From Dermatophagoides farinae (taxonomy: Eukaryota > Arthropoda > Arachnida > Sarcoptiformes > Pyroglyphidae), in contig NC_134681.1 in the NCBI RefSeq assembly GCF_024713945.1, forward strand, positions 1,054,001 through 1,118,000: a DNA stretch of 64,000 bases, given 5' to 3'. Positions 21,801 through 29,844 of this stretch are shown here, piece after piece. A program made the translations under genes and the position numbers. How positions within the stretch are numbered: the first letter of the stretch is position 1; every line of letters starts with the position of its first letter. The notes beneath the pieces are model-generated. The model ran no database searches, was not told where the DNA came from, and saw nothing but the letters and a program-made list of their open reading frames with translations.

Positions 21801-23614
21801 CATGTTCCATGTATTTGTGTGTTTTCTTGGTATGAATAAAAGGAAATAAGAAAAAAAAATAATCGACAATAACCGAAATTGAAATCAGCCGTGCATCGCA
21901 GAAAATCAAACCAGATAATTTTGTTGTTGTTGTTGTTTCGATACAATTAGTAGTAAATGGTGAAAAATGAAGAAAAAAAATTTCATTTTATGTCAATTAA
22001 ATAAGCATCACATCCTGTTATTGGAAAAATTTAGGGTGGAAAAAAATGAAAATTTGTTTTTACAGAAAACAAATAATAATGTCTTACGGGTGAAAAATAG
22101 TCACACACACACACACACACATGTACACTGAATGTTTTTTATTCAGAATCCCTAGATGTGAACAAAAAAAATAACGTTAATAATACAATAACAACAACAA
22201 CAATTTGAAAAAAAACATATTTGCTGCCTTCAAGGGGTTTTTCTTGATATTTCAAATATTGGTTCATTCATGTAAGATGTATGGATCGCTATCTGATTGG
22301 CATAATAAAAAAAATGAAAAGAAAAGAAAAGATTTCTCTGAAAGAATTTTCAAACATTGATAACAACAAGAACAACAACAACAACAACATATGTTTTTTT
22401 TTATTACAAAACAGAATTTAAACTTTTTTGAATTTTTTTTTTCATTTCTGATCAGAAAAAAAGTGGAAAAAAACCATTAGTGTTTGAAATCAAATCCATG
22501 TACTCAATGTGTAATGATTATGATCGTTTTTTTGTTTTGTTTTCTTCTTGCTGATAATCCAGGTGTAAATGATGTTGTTTTTTTTTTGCTTGTCGAAAAT
22601 TCATATTCAAGAAACAAGAAACAAGAAATAAGCAAATCATCAAAATCATCTAGCGAAAGAGAAAAAGTTTTTTTTTTAATTTTCATTGCCATTAAATAAT
22701 CAAATATGGCGTATGGAAAATAAAAAGAAAAAACTCACAAACGACAGATTGATGACAGATTATAACTTTTTTTTTCTCTCACACTTTTTTTTCTGATTTT
22801 GATTTTGACACAAACAAACACTCGTTGGTAAAATGATACTTTTTTTCTACTACAATAATTGAGAAAAAAAACGGAAGCAAATACAGTGATAGAGAGAGAG
22901 AGGAAAAAAATTCCAGCATTAGTATTGTGTGATATATTGTAATGATGATTGATGGAATTTCAGCAGAAAAATCCGAAAAAAAAGATGATGATGAATGAAT
23001 TGTTTCAAATTCTTCATGCACATACACACACATATACACACCATAATGATTATCGGGTAAAGAAATTAATTAAAAGTGATGATATCAATTTATCGATACA
23101 AATCCTAATCGTTGTTGTTATGCAAATCATCATCATTACAGATTATATATGGATAAGGATTAGAAATTATTTTTTTTTTGTTGTTCGTTTCTGTTTTTTT
23201 TTCTACTAACGAACAAAAAATTAACATTCATATTCAATTGCTATTGCTGTTTTAAATCAACATCATCATCATCATCATCATCAATTTTAATAACGAACAA
23301 ACGAATGATGAAGAAGAAGAAGAAAAAGTAAAAAAAAAAGATGAAAATTGATGCGGCGGCCAATCTCACATGATCATCATCAACACATTTATTGCTGCTC
23401 ATATTCAATGATATGTGCTTGTGTGTGTGTGTGTGTGTATGATGTATGCGTTTAGATTGATTTTCAAATTGATGTCAAAATGGCAAAAAAAAATCCTCAA
23501 ATACATGGCCATCATCATCAAACTCACATCGTGCATGAATCTTGTTTTCATTTCATTTTTGCTGATTTTCGATTTCCTTAAGTCACAATATTTCTCTCTT
23601 TTTGTTTCCATATA

Positions 23615-23631
23615 CCCTGGTAGTGCGAAAA
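23615..23631 (+). repeat. Left terminal inverted repeat of the transposon
   Basis: CCCTGGTAGTGCGAAAA, identical over 17 bp to the reverse complement of 28463-28479. Beyond it the left subterminal region to about 23720 is rich in CTGAAA and GTCTGA motifs, resembling the right end without being an exact copy. Confidence 0.9.
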
Positions 23632-24002
23632 GGCTGAAAGTCTGAAAATCTTTCTGATAAACATCTTTTTTGGTTCTGAAAATGTCTGAGAACGTCAGAA
23701 ATTTTCTGAATCTGAAAATTGACAAAATAATTCTTAATCTCCTTATTATGGCTTAAAAAATCTGAACACACTTTGTATACAATTAATTATAATTATTTTT
23801 TTTATTAATTATAATGTTGCAAATTATCTTGAGACTAAATTAAATATATCATATTTGATCATATTTAATATATAATATATCATATATATATTTGGTTGTG
23901 TATTCAATTAGTGAATTAAAATTTATTGATATTGATTGATTATTTACAAAACAAAAAAACCGAATACTGAAACAAAAACATTATTATTTATGTGTTTAAT
24001 AA

Positions 24003-26597
24003 TTACAAATGTTTGTTGAAAATGTCAAATAAATAGTTGACGCCATTTACATTTGCATATGTTGCAAGCTCGAAAAAATCAGAACACTTTAATTTAACGG
24101 TCATCGTAGAAATCTTTGAAAATGTTTTGATGTATGAAAAATGCAAATTTTCTAATTTTCTTTCTGTTGTTCTCAGCAGTAATTTTTGGCAATTTAAAAA
24201 TTCATTACAAATCAAATAAGTTTCATTTCTATCGTTTTTGATGATTTTTTCCACGATATAATATTTTCCAATTTCTGTTTTGATGCAATGATTATTTGTC
24301 GATTTTGCTGCGGTTTGGTTGTAATTTCGTGTACAAACAATTTTTTCTTTGATACGTATTCGTTTTTGAGATTGAAATGTGCCTTGGCCAAGTAATTTAT
24401 TTTCTGCACCGATTGGTTTATACACTTCCTGGAAAACTTTGATGGGTGTGTTGTTTGGACACAGTTTCGGCATATAATTGTAGAGAGATTTTAGAAACAT
24501 TTCTGACATGTGAGATGTATTGTTTCGGCAAGACGAAATGATGGATTGGTAGGTCAGAAATTTTTTCATAACTTGTTGAGTTACGTTTGTCCCAGTCTTG
24601 ACGCGTTTTGCAATGAGCCCCATTGTGTTCTCGGTAAAATATGCGGTCTGAACCGGAAGGGGCCCATAATTTTTTACCATGTCCAGAAAGTGAGCGAGAA
24701 AATGGACGTTGATTTTCCACATGAATCTTTCCTTGCTTGAATATACTTGGTCGAATGATGTGAAAAATTTTGCAATTTCAGAATCAACATGGCGTAAATC
24801 CGTCATTTTTGATATCATACGTGATGATAATTTTGACAGAATAAATGCCAATTGTTTGAAATTTTCGCATCTTCCTCTTTCAACAATTCCTTCAAAACAT
24901 ATGAAACCATAAAATAGAAGAAGTTCATAGTCCATACTTTTTAAATTTCGTTTTTGCGACAATTGAGGCATCGCTTTCAGAACACCTTCAGGAAATTTAA
25001 TTGATGAAAGTCGTTCATCCACAATGCTCAATTGTGTTTTGTTTAATTTTGTTGTTTTCAATTCATTTTTTTTTTCGTTTGGTAATACTTGATACCATCT
25101 TTTCGTAGCCAAATCATCATCTAACCATCTATTGATGATACTCTTCACCGTACCCAAATATTGGGAATGCATTGCTTCCGGTGGACATATTATCGACATG
25201 TCAACGTAGGATAATTTCATAAGCTGGCAATTTCCTTTGATGCCCATAGTTGACTTTCCACGATTATTACTGGCAATGCTCCGCCAGCTTATATTTGTCC
25301 GAAGTTTGAAGTCAAATGATAAAGAATTGTCGTATTTTCTATTTGGTATATACAACATTGACTTGAAATCATTGTCATACGTGCCTTTAATCTCACAGCA
25401 TTGGCATCCGTAATAACCATTGAATTGTGTGCTGTTTAAAAGAACGGCTCGTGCTGGTGCATCTGCAATTGCTAGAAGAAGTTTAACAAAAAACTTTTTT
25501 TCATTACCATCAACATCGATAATTATTGGATCGGTGGACAATGAGACGAGTTCATCAACAAGTGGCTTTATAACGATATCAGAGGATGGCTTACAACTAC
25601 CAGAATGAAGTGCAATAAGCATAGGATTGTTTATACGTTCTTGAAAAGGAAGTTCATTTAAATAGGCGCAAAGTGGCCACATACTTTGAGAGCCATCGTT
25701 TGTGTAAGCTACACCGTCCCAAGTCAATGTCAAAGTTAGGGTAGGAATTGAACATGATGATGATGATGTTACGAGTTGGCGATATCGTTCTGAATTGGAT
25801 AAATCGTGGAAAAATTTACTTTCTTTCGGGCGTGTAATTCTCAATTTTGAATAATACAATGGAATTTGATGATGAAGCCACTTGGAGAGAGGGATGTAAC
25901 AAAAAAATGATGAAGAATCGCTTTTCATTTTTTGTGATGGAATAATTCGACAAGATTCATGACTGTAGCAACAAGTTGTTGGAATATTTAATTCGTTAAC
26001 TGGCCCAATGATATCTCCACATTGCGAATAAAAATATTTATAAATTGTAGGCGTAAACGAATTTGGGACTTTTGTAATTATGGTGTCCCAGTCCGAACAC
26101 GATACAATAGGTTCGCCACCAGTAGTGCAACAATGACGATATGCCATGTTGTTTAGAGATTTAGAAAAGATTTCAATCTCTTTGTTTGTGGTATTGAATC
26201 TTGCCTGATGCAACAGAATTATCATAATACGTTCCATTTCATTCATTTCGATTCTCCGAGAAAAATTTTCAAATTCAATGGTTGATTCTTGATGTACGAT
26301 TTCATCATCACCATCATCGCTATCAGATGCATATTTTTGAAGGTCATCATCATCATATATAATTCCAGGTTCAACGTGATATTTATTAATTATAGTTTCA
26401 GCAGAACTCCCAGCAGGAGATTCTGAATCCGAGACTTGTGCATTGCGATTCAAAACTTTATTGACAAAAGTTGAAAATTTTTCATTTCGTCTTTGAACTT
26501 TTTTCAAAAAAGATTCACTATGATAACTTTGGGAAAAGGATGGCATTTGTTGATCAGCCATTTCGTGTTGTTTTTCCGATTCATCAGATCGCTTCAT
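24003..26597 (-). CDS. Tnp2/DUF4218-type transposase of an EnSpm-like transposon
   Basis: A single open frame of 864 codons from ATG 26597; 33 more codons lie upstream in frame but encode a hydrophobic Cys/Phe-rich stretch unlikely to be translated. Residues 1-120 are acidic and Ser-rich. A Cys/His-rich stretch follows at about 155-220. The core has WDGVAYTNDG (about 293-302) then SMWPLCAYLNELP, matching the DG...S.WP....NELP signature of animal Tnp2-like transposases, then ADAPARA (about 378-384) and TQFNGYYGCQCC (about 392-401), the family's (D)SPARA and FNG.YGC..C motifs. Later come LKAMPQLSQKRNLKSMDYELLLFYG-like blocks and ENTMG. In this superfamily the protein cuts at the inverted repeats and moves the element through DNA. 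No stop or frameshift is seen, so it could be active. Family assignment is from motif memory and not from a search. Confidence 0.85.
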   Translation of the reverse strand: MKRSDESEKQHEMADQQMPSFSQSYHSESFLKKVQRRNEKFSTFVNKVLNRNAQVSDSESPAGSSAETIINKYHVEPGIIYDDDDLQKYASDSDDGDDEIVHQESTIEFENFSRRIEMNEMERIMIILLHQARFNTTNKEIEIFSKSLNNMAYRHCCTTGGEPIVSCSDWDTIITKVPNSFTPTIYKYFYSQCGDIIGPVNELNIPTTCCYSHESCRIIPSQKMKSDSSSFFCYIPLSKWLHHQIPLYYSKLRITRPKESKFFHDLSNSERYRQLVTSSSSCSIPTLTLTLTWDGVAYTNDGSQSMWPLCAYLNELPFQERINNPMLIALHSGSCKPSSDIVIKPLVDELVSLSTDPIIIDVDGNEKKFFVKLLLAIADAPARAVLLNSTQFNGYYGCQCCEIKGTYDNDFKSMLYIPNRKYDNSLSFDFKLRTNISWRSIASNNRGKSTMGIKGNCQLMKLSYVDMSIICPPEAMHSQYLGTVKSIINRWLDDDLATKRWYQVLPNEKKNELKTTKLNKTQLSIVDERLSSIKFPEGVLKAMPQLSQKRNLKSMDYELLLFYGFICFEGIVERGRCENFKQLAFILSKLSSRMISKMTDLRHVDSEIAKFFTSFDQVYSSKERFMWKINVHFLAHFLDMVKNYGPLPVQTAYFTENTMGLIAKRVKTGTNVTQQVMKKFLTYQSIISSCRNNTSHMSEMFLKSLYNYMPKLCPNNTPIKVFQEVYKPIGAENKLLGQGTFQSQKRIRIKEKIVCTRNYNQTAAKSTNNHCIKTEIGKYYIVEKIIKNDRNETYLICNEFLNCQKLLLRTTERKLENLHFSYIKTFSKISTMTVKLKCSDFFELATYANVNGVNYLFDIFNKHL

Positions 26598-27091
26598 GGT
26601 GATAAACGTGATAATTAAACAAAAATCAATCAAACAACAACAATCTCGAAACTCGAAGGAAGAGAAAAAAACAGGCAAGTGCAAAAAAATTGTCAATATA
26701 AAAATTGTCGATACTTGTTGAGTATTACGCTTTTGTGAAAGCGAAAAAATAACTGCAAAAAAATGATTTTGGTGTGCGCGTACTCATGTCAAAGCCCCAA
26801 ACATACATGAGTGTGAAAAAATGTGTATGTTTGTGCTTCGCGAAGACTAAATTTTTTCACACTACTGTCCAATGTGCGGAGGGTGTATGTTCAAAAAATG
26901 CTTCTTCTTATCAGTTATGAGCTGCACCGAATTCGATTTTTTTCTTTTTATTTTCGTGTAACATTGCGGTTTTTCTGCCATTGTTTCGCCGTTGTTTGAA
27001 TGGATTACTTCGTCATCATTTGAAAAAAGTATTTCGTCATCATTTGAAAAAATAATTTCGTCATTATTTGAAAAGATTTGTGTGGTCGAAT
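26598..27091. promoter_or_regulatory. Divergent promoter region between the two transposon genes
   Basis: A 494-bp spacer separates the ATG of the transposase (minus) from the ATG of the passenger gene (plus), so both must be started from here. The spacer contains a GTGTGAAAAA...TTTTTTCACAC pair at about 26810-26862 and a threefold TTCGTCATCATTTGAAAA-like repeat at about 27009-27075 just before the passenger gene ATG. These are seen directly; a regulatory role is inference. Confidence 0.5.
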
Positions 27092-28027
27092 ATGGTTTCC
27101 ATAATTAATTTTTGCAATTCAAGCGAGGAATATTCATCATTTATTAATTATATGCAGGGTGAGTATTCGGTTTTTGCTTTTGAGAATGTTTTGTTTTTTA
27201 CCTCATGTTCTTTTTCAGAAAATCAAATTAATACAGTAGATGAATTCAAAGATCATCTACAATACAATGTATTGTCGTTTTTGCGAGCATTCACTAATCT
27301 TAATTTTGGAAAACTTGAAACGGACCTTGCAGTTTTTGAAGAAAATGAAAATAAAAAGAATGAACGAAAAATTGATGAAGACGATGAAATTATTAATAAT
27401 ATTATTGATGATGAAGATTGCCAATGTGAAAATTTATGTTGTGCAAAATTAAGACAAAAATTGAATCATTTGTCCGAAAAAGTTGATACGATGGAAATAT
27501 GGATAAAAAATGAAATGAAAAAAATCGACAATCCATTAGTAATCAATAATTCTATGAAAAATGGAGATTTTTTATTGGAAGATAAATGGCTAGTCAAAGG
27601 CGAATTTTTACATATCGCCGCTAGAGATAGTGGCAATAGCGACCTGGCTAACCTTTTAGATTCGGTTTTTGGAAGAAAAATCTTACAAAAATACAAGTCG
27701 ATTAAAGATCTTCCAAACGAGCTTAAAAAAGCGATCGATTTATTAATTGGTAAGTCACTTCAATAAACTTTCTTCAACCAATATCATCGCAACATTTAGA
27801 GCATTATTCAAGGGCAAAAGTCGTTGAAAAAGGAGGAGAGTATAATAAAATAAAAAATAATGCTAAACAACGAATAAACAAACGTTTTGACAATTGGAAT
27901 CGGTACCAGTTGAAAAAAAGTAAGTCTTTTATATACATTATTATGTGATCGTACTTATATTTCATTTTGATTTTTTTACAAAACAGAATTGTCAGTCAAA
28001 TCACCATCCACATCAAATGATGATTAA
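27092..28027 (+). CDS. Transposon passenger gene, BEN-like domain protein, four exons
   Basis: Proposed exons are 27092-27158, 27219-27749, 27800-27919 and 27987-28027, all with GT...AG borders and matching phases, giving 252 residues. The first intron is 60 nt with no stop, so retaining it adds 20 residues in frame. Around residue 65-90 there is an acidic stretch, then a CQCENLCC cysteine cluster and a predicted coiled-coil segment. The C-terminal half has GEFLHIAARDSGNSDLANLL, DSVFGRKIL and a basic tail RINKRFDNWNRYQLKK. The pattern of a conserved W/L start, then LLDS.F.R..L, resembles BEN domains, which bind DNA or chromatin. Two-gene EnSpm-like elements often carry a second protein that helps bind the ends. 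The exon model is well supported, the BEN assignment moderately so. Confidence 0.65.
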
Positions 28028-28250
28028 TTAAATGTTGCAATATCATCATTTTTCGCTTATTTTTTTATTTTTTCCAGTCATTTTTTTAAATTTGTAATAA
28101 CCTATGTTTATATCTATGTTAATAATTAATTTTTGTTAATTTATTATCCTAATACAAATTAAAATATATATAATAAATAATATATAAAAAAAATTTCAGA
28201 AATCAAAATGAGTGAAATGAAAGAAAATTCCCGGGAAATCTATTGCCTAC

Positions 28251-28476
28251 AGTGGTGTCTGAATGTTGTCAGACTTAGCTAAATTCAGCATCAAAAAAGT
28301 ACCATAAACGACCCAGAATTCTGACGTCTGAAAGAAGTCTTTCAGACGTTTTCGCACTACCACTAGTGGTGTCTGAATGTTGTCAGACTTAGCTAACTTC
28401 AGCATTGAAAAATCACCATAAACGACCCAGAATTCTGACGTCTGAAAGAAGTCTTTCAGACGTTTTCGCACTACCA
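28251..28476 (+). repeat. Tandemly duplicated right end of the transposon
   Basis: A 112-bp unit starting AGTGGTGTCTGAATGTTGTC and ending TTTTCGCACTACCA is present at 28251-28362 and 28365-28476, differing at only a few bases around the middle. Each copy contains the inner part of the terminal inverted repeat and a perfect 12-bp palindrome arm pair (ACGTCTGAAAGA / TCTTTCAGACGT, 2-base spacer) at 28324-28349 and 28438-28463. The outermost copy alone has the terminal GGG. Confidence 0.95.
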
Positions 28477-28479
28477 GGG
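28463..28479 (-). repeat. Right terminal inverted repeat of the transposon
   Basis: TTTTCGCACTACCAGGG, exact reverse complement of 23615-23631, followed at once by the TATA target duplication at 28480-28483. Confidence 0.9.
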
Positions 28480-29844
28480 TATAAGCCAATATGAAGATTG
28501 AATTTGGATATACAACCGACAATGTATAATGTAAAATAAAAAATATTTGTATTCTTCCTGGATAAATCTTAAAGATAAATAATGATGATGATGATGAAAA
28601 TTTTTAGACATCAAAACATAATGATAATCACAATAAACATCCGATATCGATCTAATCGATTGATTGATTTTCAAATTCAAACATTGGATGTATTTTTTTC
28701 TACTGAATAAAAAATAGGATTAGAACAATCCGACCGTATGTTTTGGGTGCAAAGAAACAAAACAAAAAAAAAAAAACAAACTTTGTGATAGAAAATGGAA
28801 ATTTTTTTTCTTTTTTTTTTGAATTTTTTTTGATGAAATTCAGGTGTGCTCACAGCGTAACTGATTGATTGATGGATTATATTATTCCATTCGTTTCGTT
28901 ATTTGCCCTGTTGTCTGATTTAATTATCAAAAATAGAAAACAAAAATTTCCATTTTACATTCAAAAGAAAAGTGAAATTTTTGAAACCAGAAACAGAAAG
29001 ATTTCAATGAATAAATTGCATTAAATCACAATCAATGTAAACAAGCAAGTAAACAAGCAAGCAAGCAAAAAACAAATTCGTTTTTTTTCTTTTTCCAATA
29101 ATCAGGATAAATAAATTTCAGCAGGAAAACATGTAATCGCCACCTATTATAAACATTGGTGATCAATGAGTGAATAAAAAATGAATGAATGAATGAATGA
29201 ACAAACAAGCCTCAAATGGAGAATGAAAATGGAAAAAAAAGCTTTTTATATAATTGCTAATAATTTCTCATCAATTTTTTTTTCATTTGGATTTGCTCCA
29301 TATAATAGATTGATGATCAACTACTACCACCACCACCGTCACCACCAGCATCATCCAAAATACTGAGATCAATAATCAATTGTGAATGATAATAGAAAAA
29401 ACGAAAACGAAAACGAAAATAGCATAATAATGTACCGCATAAGAATTATGTTTTTGGAAACGGAGAAAAAGAAAAATGAAAAAAAAAACAATTTTCGTGA
29501 ATCAGGCAATTTTTGTTTTTCTTTCTTTTGAAAAAATAGTAAAAATATCCATAAATTAGCCAGGAGAACAGAAAAAAAATTGATCGAAACATTCGATGTA
29601 TTAATCGATTCGAATTTCAATTGATTTATCCGTATTTTATTATTATTATTACTTTTGATGTTTCTGTTGTTGTTGTTGTTGTTTGTTTCTTTTTTTCAAT
29701 TGAATTGTGTAACATTGGAAAACAAAACACAAACGATACAGGGCAACAACAACAACAACAATGGATTGTAATTGAAACTAATCATTCGAATTGTGATGTG
29801 AATAAGTTACCGTTTCATAAGTACGAAATTTGTTTTCACATTCA

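Follow-up and report, generated by a model that had tools for sequence, protein, structure and literature searches.

We analysed a 64,000-nucleotide stretch of the genome of the house dust mite Dermatophagoides farinae (hereafter the window; C5:1054001-1118000, in an assembly of 22 contigs and 62.4 Mb), which contains a complete DNA transposon of 4,865 bp at window positions 23615-28479. From its sequence features we classify it, with a probability of about 0.9, as a cut-and-paste, autonomous-looking animal relative of the CACTA elements (TRC; filed under EnSpm within the CMC group). CCC ends and a short target duplication, here probably TA, are already known from animal CACTA relatives, and the element is ordinary for its kind. 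The original prediction of an intact EnSpm/CACTA-type element is borne out, and the possible recent activity is supported by an identical copy elsewhere, at a site that is empty in its relatives. Its further proposal, that the CCC ends together with a duplication other than 3 bp indicate a distinct mite lineage, is not supported, since both traits have been published for TRC elements and for the Hydra element Spongebob.

The element is bounded by perfect 17-bp inverted repeats, CCCTGGTAGTGCGAAAA, at 23615-23631 on the plus strand and 28463-28479 on the minus strand, exactly as first described. These ends are not a product of chance, because three full-length copies share them and the first base is the same in a fourth copy, which is truncated (C7:4523468); CCCTGG, the beginning of all four, carries the CCC that marks TRC elements. 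The tetranucleotide TATA flanks the window copy on both sides (23611-23614 and 28480-28483), and comparison of the flanks of the three full copies points to its element-proximal TA (23613-23614 and 28480-28481) as the probable 2-bp target duplication. The motif CACTA does occur just inside the ends (TAGTG/CACTA within the 17-bp repeat), as had been noted, but no copy ends there. On either strand, the motif TCTGAAA is found seven times in the terminal 360 bp vs four times in the central 4,505 bp, with three exact copies in the left subterminal region, i.e., the first 120 bp (23615-23734). Part of this enrichment is due to a 112-bp direct repeat on the plus strand (28251-28362 and 28365-28476), the second copy of which is 96% identical to the first and runs into the right inverted repeat.

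The predicted Tnp2-like transposase was confirmed as a single open frame of 864 codons on the minus strand (24003-26597), which matches Transposase_21 (PF02992, Tnp2) at 35.1 bits against a Pfam cut-off of 28.6; a DUF4218 match remained below threshold (16.2 bits vs 27). The Transposase_21 match covers residues 288-423 (25329-25736, minus strand) and includes the proposed catalytic residues D294 and D379 and a CxxC motif at 398-401. The layout D, D, C(2)C, H(3-4)H, E described for CMC transposases (PMC12730594) is present in this order, with CQCC at 398 and HFLAH at 632 (H632, H636) followed by the proposed catalytic E656 (24630-24704, minus strand), the last of which was assigned by inspection. 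In viral and genome contig collections, a search with one protein as query, which can pick up only close relatives, found none of the transposase, and there were none in a phage collection or the PDB; the exact 17-bp end had no match in viral contigs.

A second gene is oriented divergently to the transposase and, on a GT-AG splice reading, would encode 252 residues on the plus strand (27092-28027) in exons at 27092-27158, 27219-27749, 27800-27919, and 27987-28027. The second gene of the original prediction thus holds, but not as one frame, as predicted introns split it into four exons. In older relatives, the frames break (judged by eye) at about the same places as these introns. Over 168 codons aligned with a relative on contig C2, differences number 56, 37, and 92 at first, second, and third positions, respectively, and this third-position excess suggests that the gene has been kept under selection; 91 residues are identical, and the matched C2 stretch contains one stop. 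A BEN-type DNA-binding domain had been suspected in the second protein and is not claimed here, as there was no BEN match and nothing credible in Pfam or the PDB. Single-sequence structure predictions were uninformative for both genes (mean pLDDT 32.0 for the transposase and 35.6 for the exon-2 frame of the second gene).

A genome-wide DNA search returned at least 23 matching stretches. Besides the window copy on C5, full-length copies are present on C1 and C9, and the truncated copy on C7, which retains the left end only, accounts for three stretches; the remaining 17, with identities of 68-96%, are fragments and suggest a long history of the family in this lineage. Between the window copy and the C1 copy (3950348-3955212) there are 0 differences over 4,865 bp, yet their flanks differ. 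The C9 copy (415777-420610) differs from the window copy by 9 substitutions over 4,810 aligned bases and by 79 gap columns. Its transposase frame is broken: the longest stretch free of stops spans 700 codons vs 926 in the intact copies, and a separate count gave five in-frame stops, with an open frame of 908. When up to two mismatches were allowed, the 17-bp end matched the genome 13 times, compared with three matches for a reversed control pattern; all seven exact matches sit in the four copies described above, whereas the other six have two mismatches each. No second end, and hence no short nonautonomous copy with both ends, was seen by eye at the five of these six other than C6:4614865, of which C3:2124348 was covered in part. 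The proposed search for copies with the same ends therefore yielded the three full-length copies and the truncated one, and none with other termini.

Two of these copies have neighbours of their own. The C9 copy lies in a locally duplicated region with coding sequence that resembles reverse transcriptase by eye (C9:413001-416000 and 420300-424000). Just left of the truncated copy, near position 4,523,300 of C7 (L013 1300-1450), a tRNA-Ser-like sequence with an intron-like insert was seen by eye; ARAGORN reported no tRNA-Ser at this locus, only a tRNA-Asn at 678-751.

The clearest insertion site is that of the C1 copy, which sits within a repeat. Ten other loci of this repeat were matched, eight of which were fetched; the other two match only away from the site. 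Six of the eight span the site and all six read GATGCTACTTTTC without the element, so the C1 copy inserted into the repeat at this position. The occurrence of an identical copy at a site whose relatives are empty indicates that the element has probably been mobile recently, and the identity of the copies is consistent with present activity. The filled C1 site reads TGATGCTA|element|TATGCTAC, where TA is the sole repeat directly at the CCC ends. Around the window copy, the flanks are TCCATATA|element|TATAAGCC; they agree with a duplication of TA or TATA but not with one of 5 bp, and the only match to the joined flanks was the locus itself, in a search that skips simple repeats. The C9 copy is flanked as TATGTGTG|element|GATGGTCG, and these two flanks recur in reverse order on C8, for which reason its site looks rearranged and uninformative on the duplication.

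The TATA duplication seen at the window copy is therefore not general, and we rejected it as the target duplication of the family: it fails both in the C1 copy (GCTA|TATG) and in the C9 copy (TGTG|GATG), and the empty relatives at C1, the very check proposed for it, show no TATA duplication. TA/TA lies directly at the CCC ends in two of the three full copies and is the only match common to two, whereas a 3-bp repeat at the ends was found in none of the three. At the base composition of the window, a chance match of the flanks has a probability of about 0.085 for 2 bp, 0.007 for 4 bp, and 0.002 for 5 bp. A 2-bp TA duplication is the most likely, though tentative, reading of these flanks because it is common to two copies and to published relatives.

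Calling the CCCTGG ends non-canonical proved mistaken, since CCC ends have been published for TRC elements, and CACTA/CACTG ends with 3-bp duplications are the yardstick of plants. With plant En/Spm, the mite element shares the Transposase_21 enzyme, repeated subterminal motifs, and two proteins; the plant-type marks of CACTA ends and 3-bp duplications are replaced by CCC ends and probably 2 bp. For the TRC elements of Schistosoma, Aedes, and Tribolium, the 2006 paper (PMC1636069) describes ends that start with CCC, and for TRC also flanking repeats of 2 bp (seen in 7 of the 14 SmTRC1 copies), Transposase_21, and CxxC. The ends, the domain, and CxxC have counterparts in the mite, where a 2-bp duplication is probable, and the two aspartates are 80 residues apart in TRC vs 84 residues between them here. 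At 4.9 kb the mite element is similar in size to SmTRC1 (4.5 kb) and the Tribolium element (5.2 kb), while that of Aedes is 9.2 kb, and the 3' tandem repeat of SmTRC1 resembles the mite subterminal direct repeat (PMC1636069). The ends of the Tribolium and mite elements (CCCTAGTAG... and CCCTGGTAG..., respectively) are alike: the former (CCCTAGTAGCACC...) shares 8 of its first 9 bases with the latter, a score reached by 9 of 100,000 random 9-mers of similar composition. Differences from these TRC elements are the shorter inverted repeat (17 bp vs 54 bp in SmTRC1 and 27 in Tribolium) and the separate divergent second gene, as SmTRC1 obtains further proteins via alternative splicing (PMC1636069). 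Spongebob_HMa of Hydra was filed as a TRC within CACTA/EnSpm on its CCC ends and 2-bp duplication (PMC4298943), the former shared with the mite element and the latter probable there, although the rest of its inverted repeat differs (CCCAGCCAACATTGAC); its exact transposase was not found by its authors owing to stops or frameshifts (PMC4298943).

Several observations weigh against an ordinary TRC with a 2-bp duplication. The strict forms of motif I and of the animal/fungal motif A (PMC1636069) are absent from the transposase, which matches the published motifs only when one spacing in motif I and two residues in motif A are relaxed. The relaxed motifs, at residues 287 and 474, respectively, nonetheless speak for a TRC; of 2000 shuffles, none reached relaxed motif I and 2 reached relaxed motif A, and motif I is found in most TRC elements, not all, according to the same paper. 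When the comparison of the Tribolium and mite ends is extended to 17 bases, only 11 match. Most cases in the wider CMC-Transib group have CA..TG ends (PMC12730594), which makes CCC the minority form there and speaks for the original prediction. No duplication of at least 2 bp is seen at the C9 copy. Finally, compared with its empty relatives, the filled C1 site contains ATGCT(A) twice, which corresponds to a duplication of 5-6 bp and not 2 bp.

The C1 site could be taken to mean that the element truly departs from animal TRCs, as a CMC transposon that has the ends ACCCTGG...CCAGGGT and duplicates 5 bp of its target. There, ATGCT flanks an 18-bp symmetric repeat on either side and is present once in the six spanning relatives, and a chance match of this length is rare (about 0.002, see above). 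We nevertheless consider such an element unlikely, as both the window copy and the C9 copy fail the 5-bp test and the published animal relatives use 2 bp (PMC1636069, PMC4298943). The C1 locus moreover has other private changes, since about 14 bp that every one of the six spanning relatives has immediately right of the site are missing from it, and a tandem duplication before or during insertion is possible and would account for ATGCT(A). Even a 5-bp duplication would stay inside the range of the group, as duplications of 2 to 5 bp are described for CMC-Transib elements (PMC12730594). The chances are likewise low for a dust-mite CMC lineage with an unfixed duplication length, or with 5 bp and ACCCTGG ends; if true, this would separate the mite lineage from published animal TRCs.

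Mirage duplicates TA, and the TA/TA flanks in two of the three full copies would also suit a Mirage-type or ESTA-type element instead of an animal EnSpm/TRC. The same catalytic motifs occur in both, and ESTA elements are EnSpm-like, defined by TA duplications, and share the catalytic motif layout of the mite transposase (PMC12730594). By their description, to which the comparison is confined, they are however fungal and carry a TET/JBP gene, for which no match was reported in the second mite protein. With CCC-starting ends being the published mark of TRC and Transposase_21 passing its Pfam cut-off, a Mirage-type or ESTA-type element seems improbable. Little also speaks for a dead relic or a segmental duplication in place of a recently mobile element: just three full copies were identified, short copies with both ends were not found, and the C9 transposase frame is interrupted, but two copies are identical across 4,865 bp despite different flanks, and the C1 copy splits a repeat that is uninterrupted in six spanning relatives.

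As an animal TRC, the element would be excised at its CCCTGG ends by the Transposase_21 enzyme and inserted elsewhere, leaving a short duplication that is most likely 2-bp TA. In maize En/Spm, TNPA binds repeated subterminal motifs, and by analogy the second protein of the mite element may help to bind such motifs; both the catalysis and this role are proposed from sequence.

Three further loci were recorded in the course of the search. Near position 7,830,000 of C1 (L055 4517-5023), a rearranged relic joins the N-terminus of the transposase and part of the second gene on the same strand in one open frame of 169 codons. At C7:2798099-2798428 (L057 5081-5593), a 170-codon frame with a weak Transposase_21 match (20.8 bits vs the cut-off of 28.6) may be an ancient remnant of another CMC lineage. 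Near position 326,500 of C15 (L021 461-2743), there is an unbroken 760-codon frame for an MCM helicase (Pfam MCM, 309.8 bits); the G+C content of this locus is 38.8%, the highest among the 71 loci fetched (others 28-37%; window 29.7%), and contig C15 may come from another organism in the culture.

A literature search combining both names found no earlier report of EnSpm for Dermatophagoides, and a paper on the scabies mite mentions EnSpm-related fragments in that mite. With this element, the animal CACTA relatives gain an intact-looking, probably recently mobile member from a mite, without change to the known mechanism. A published study reports that the PIWI-interacting RNA (piRNA) pathway has been lost in house dust mites, which control transposons by Dicer-made small interfering RNAs (siRNAs) (PMC5805368), and a low-copy, recently mobile DNA transposon could therefore be a test case for siRNA control in dust mites.

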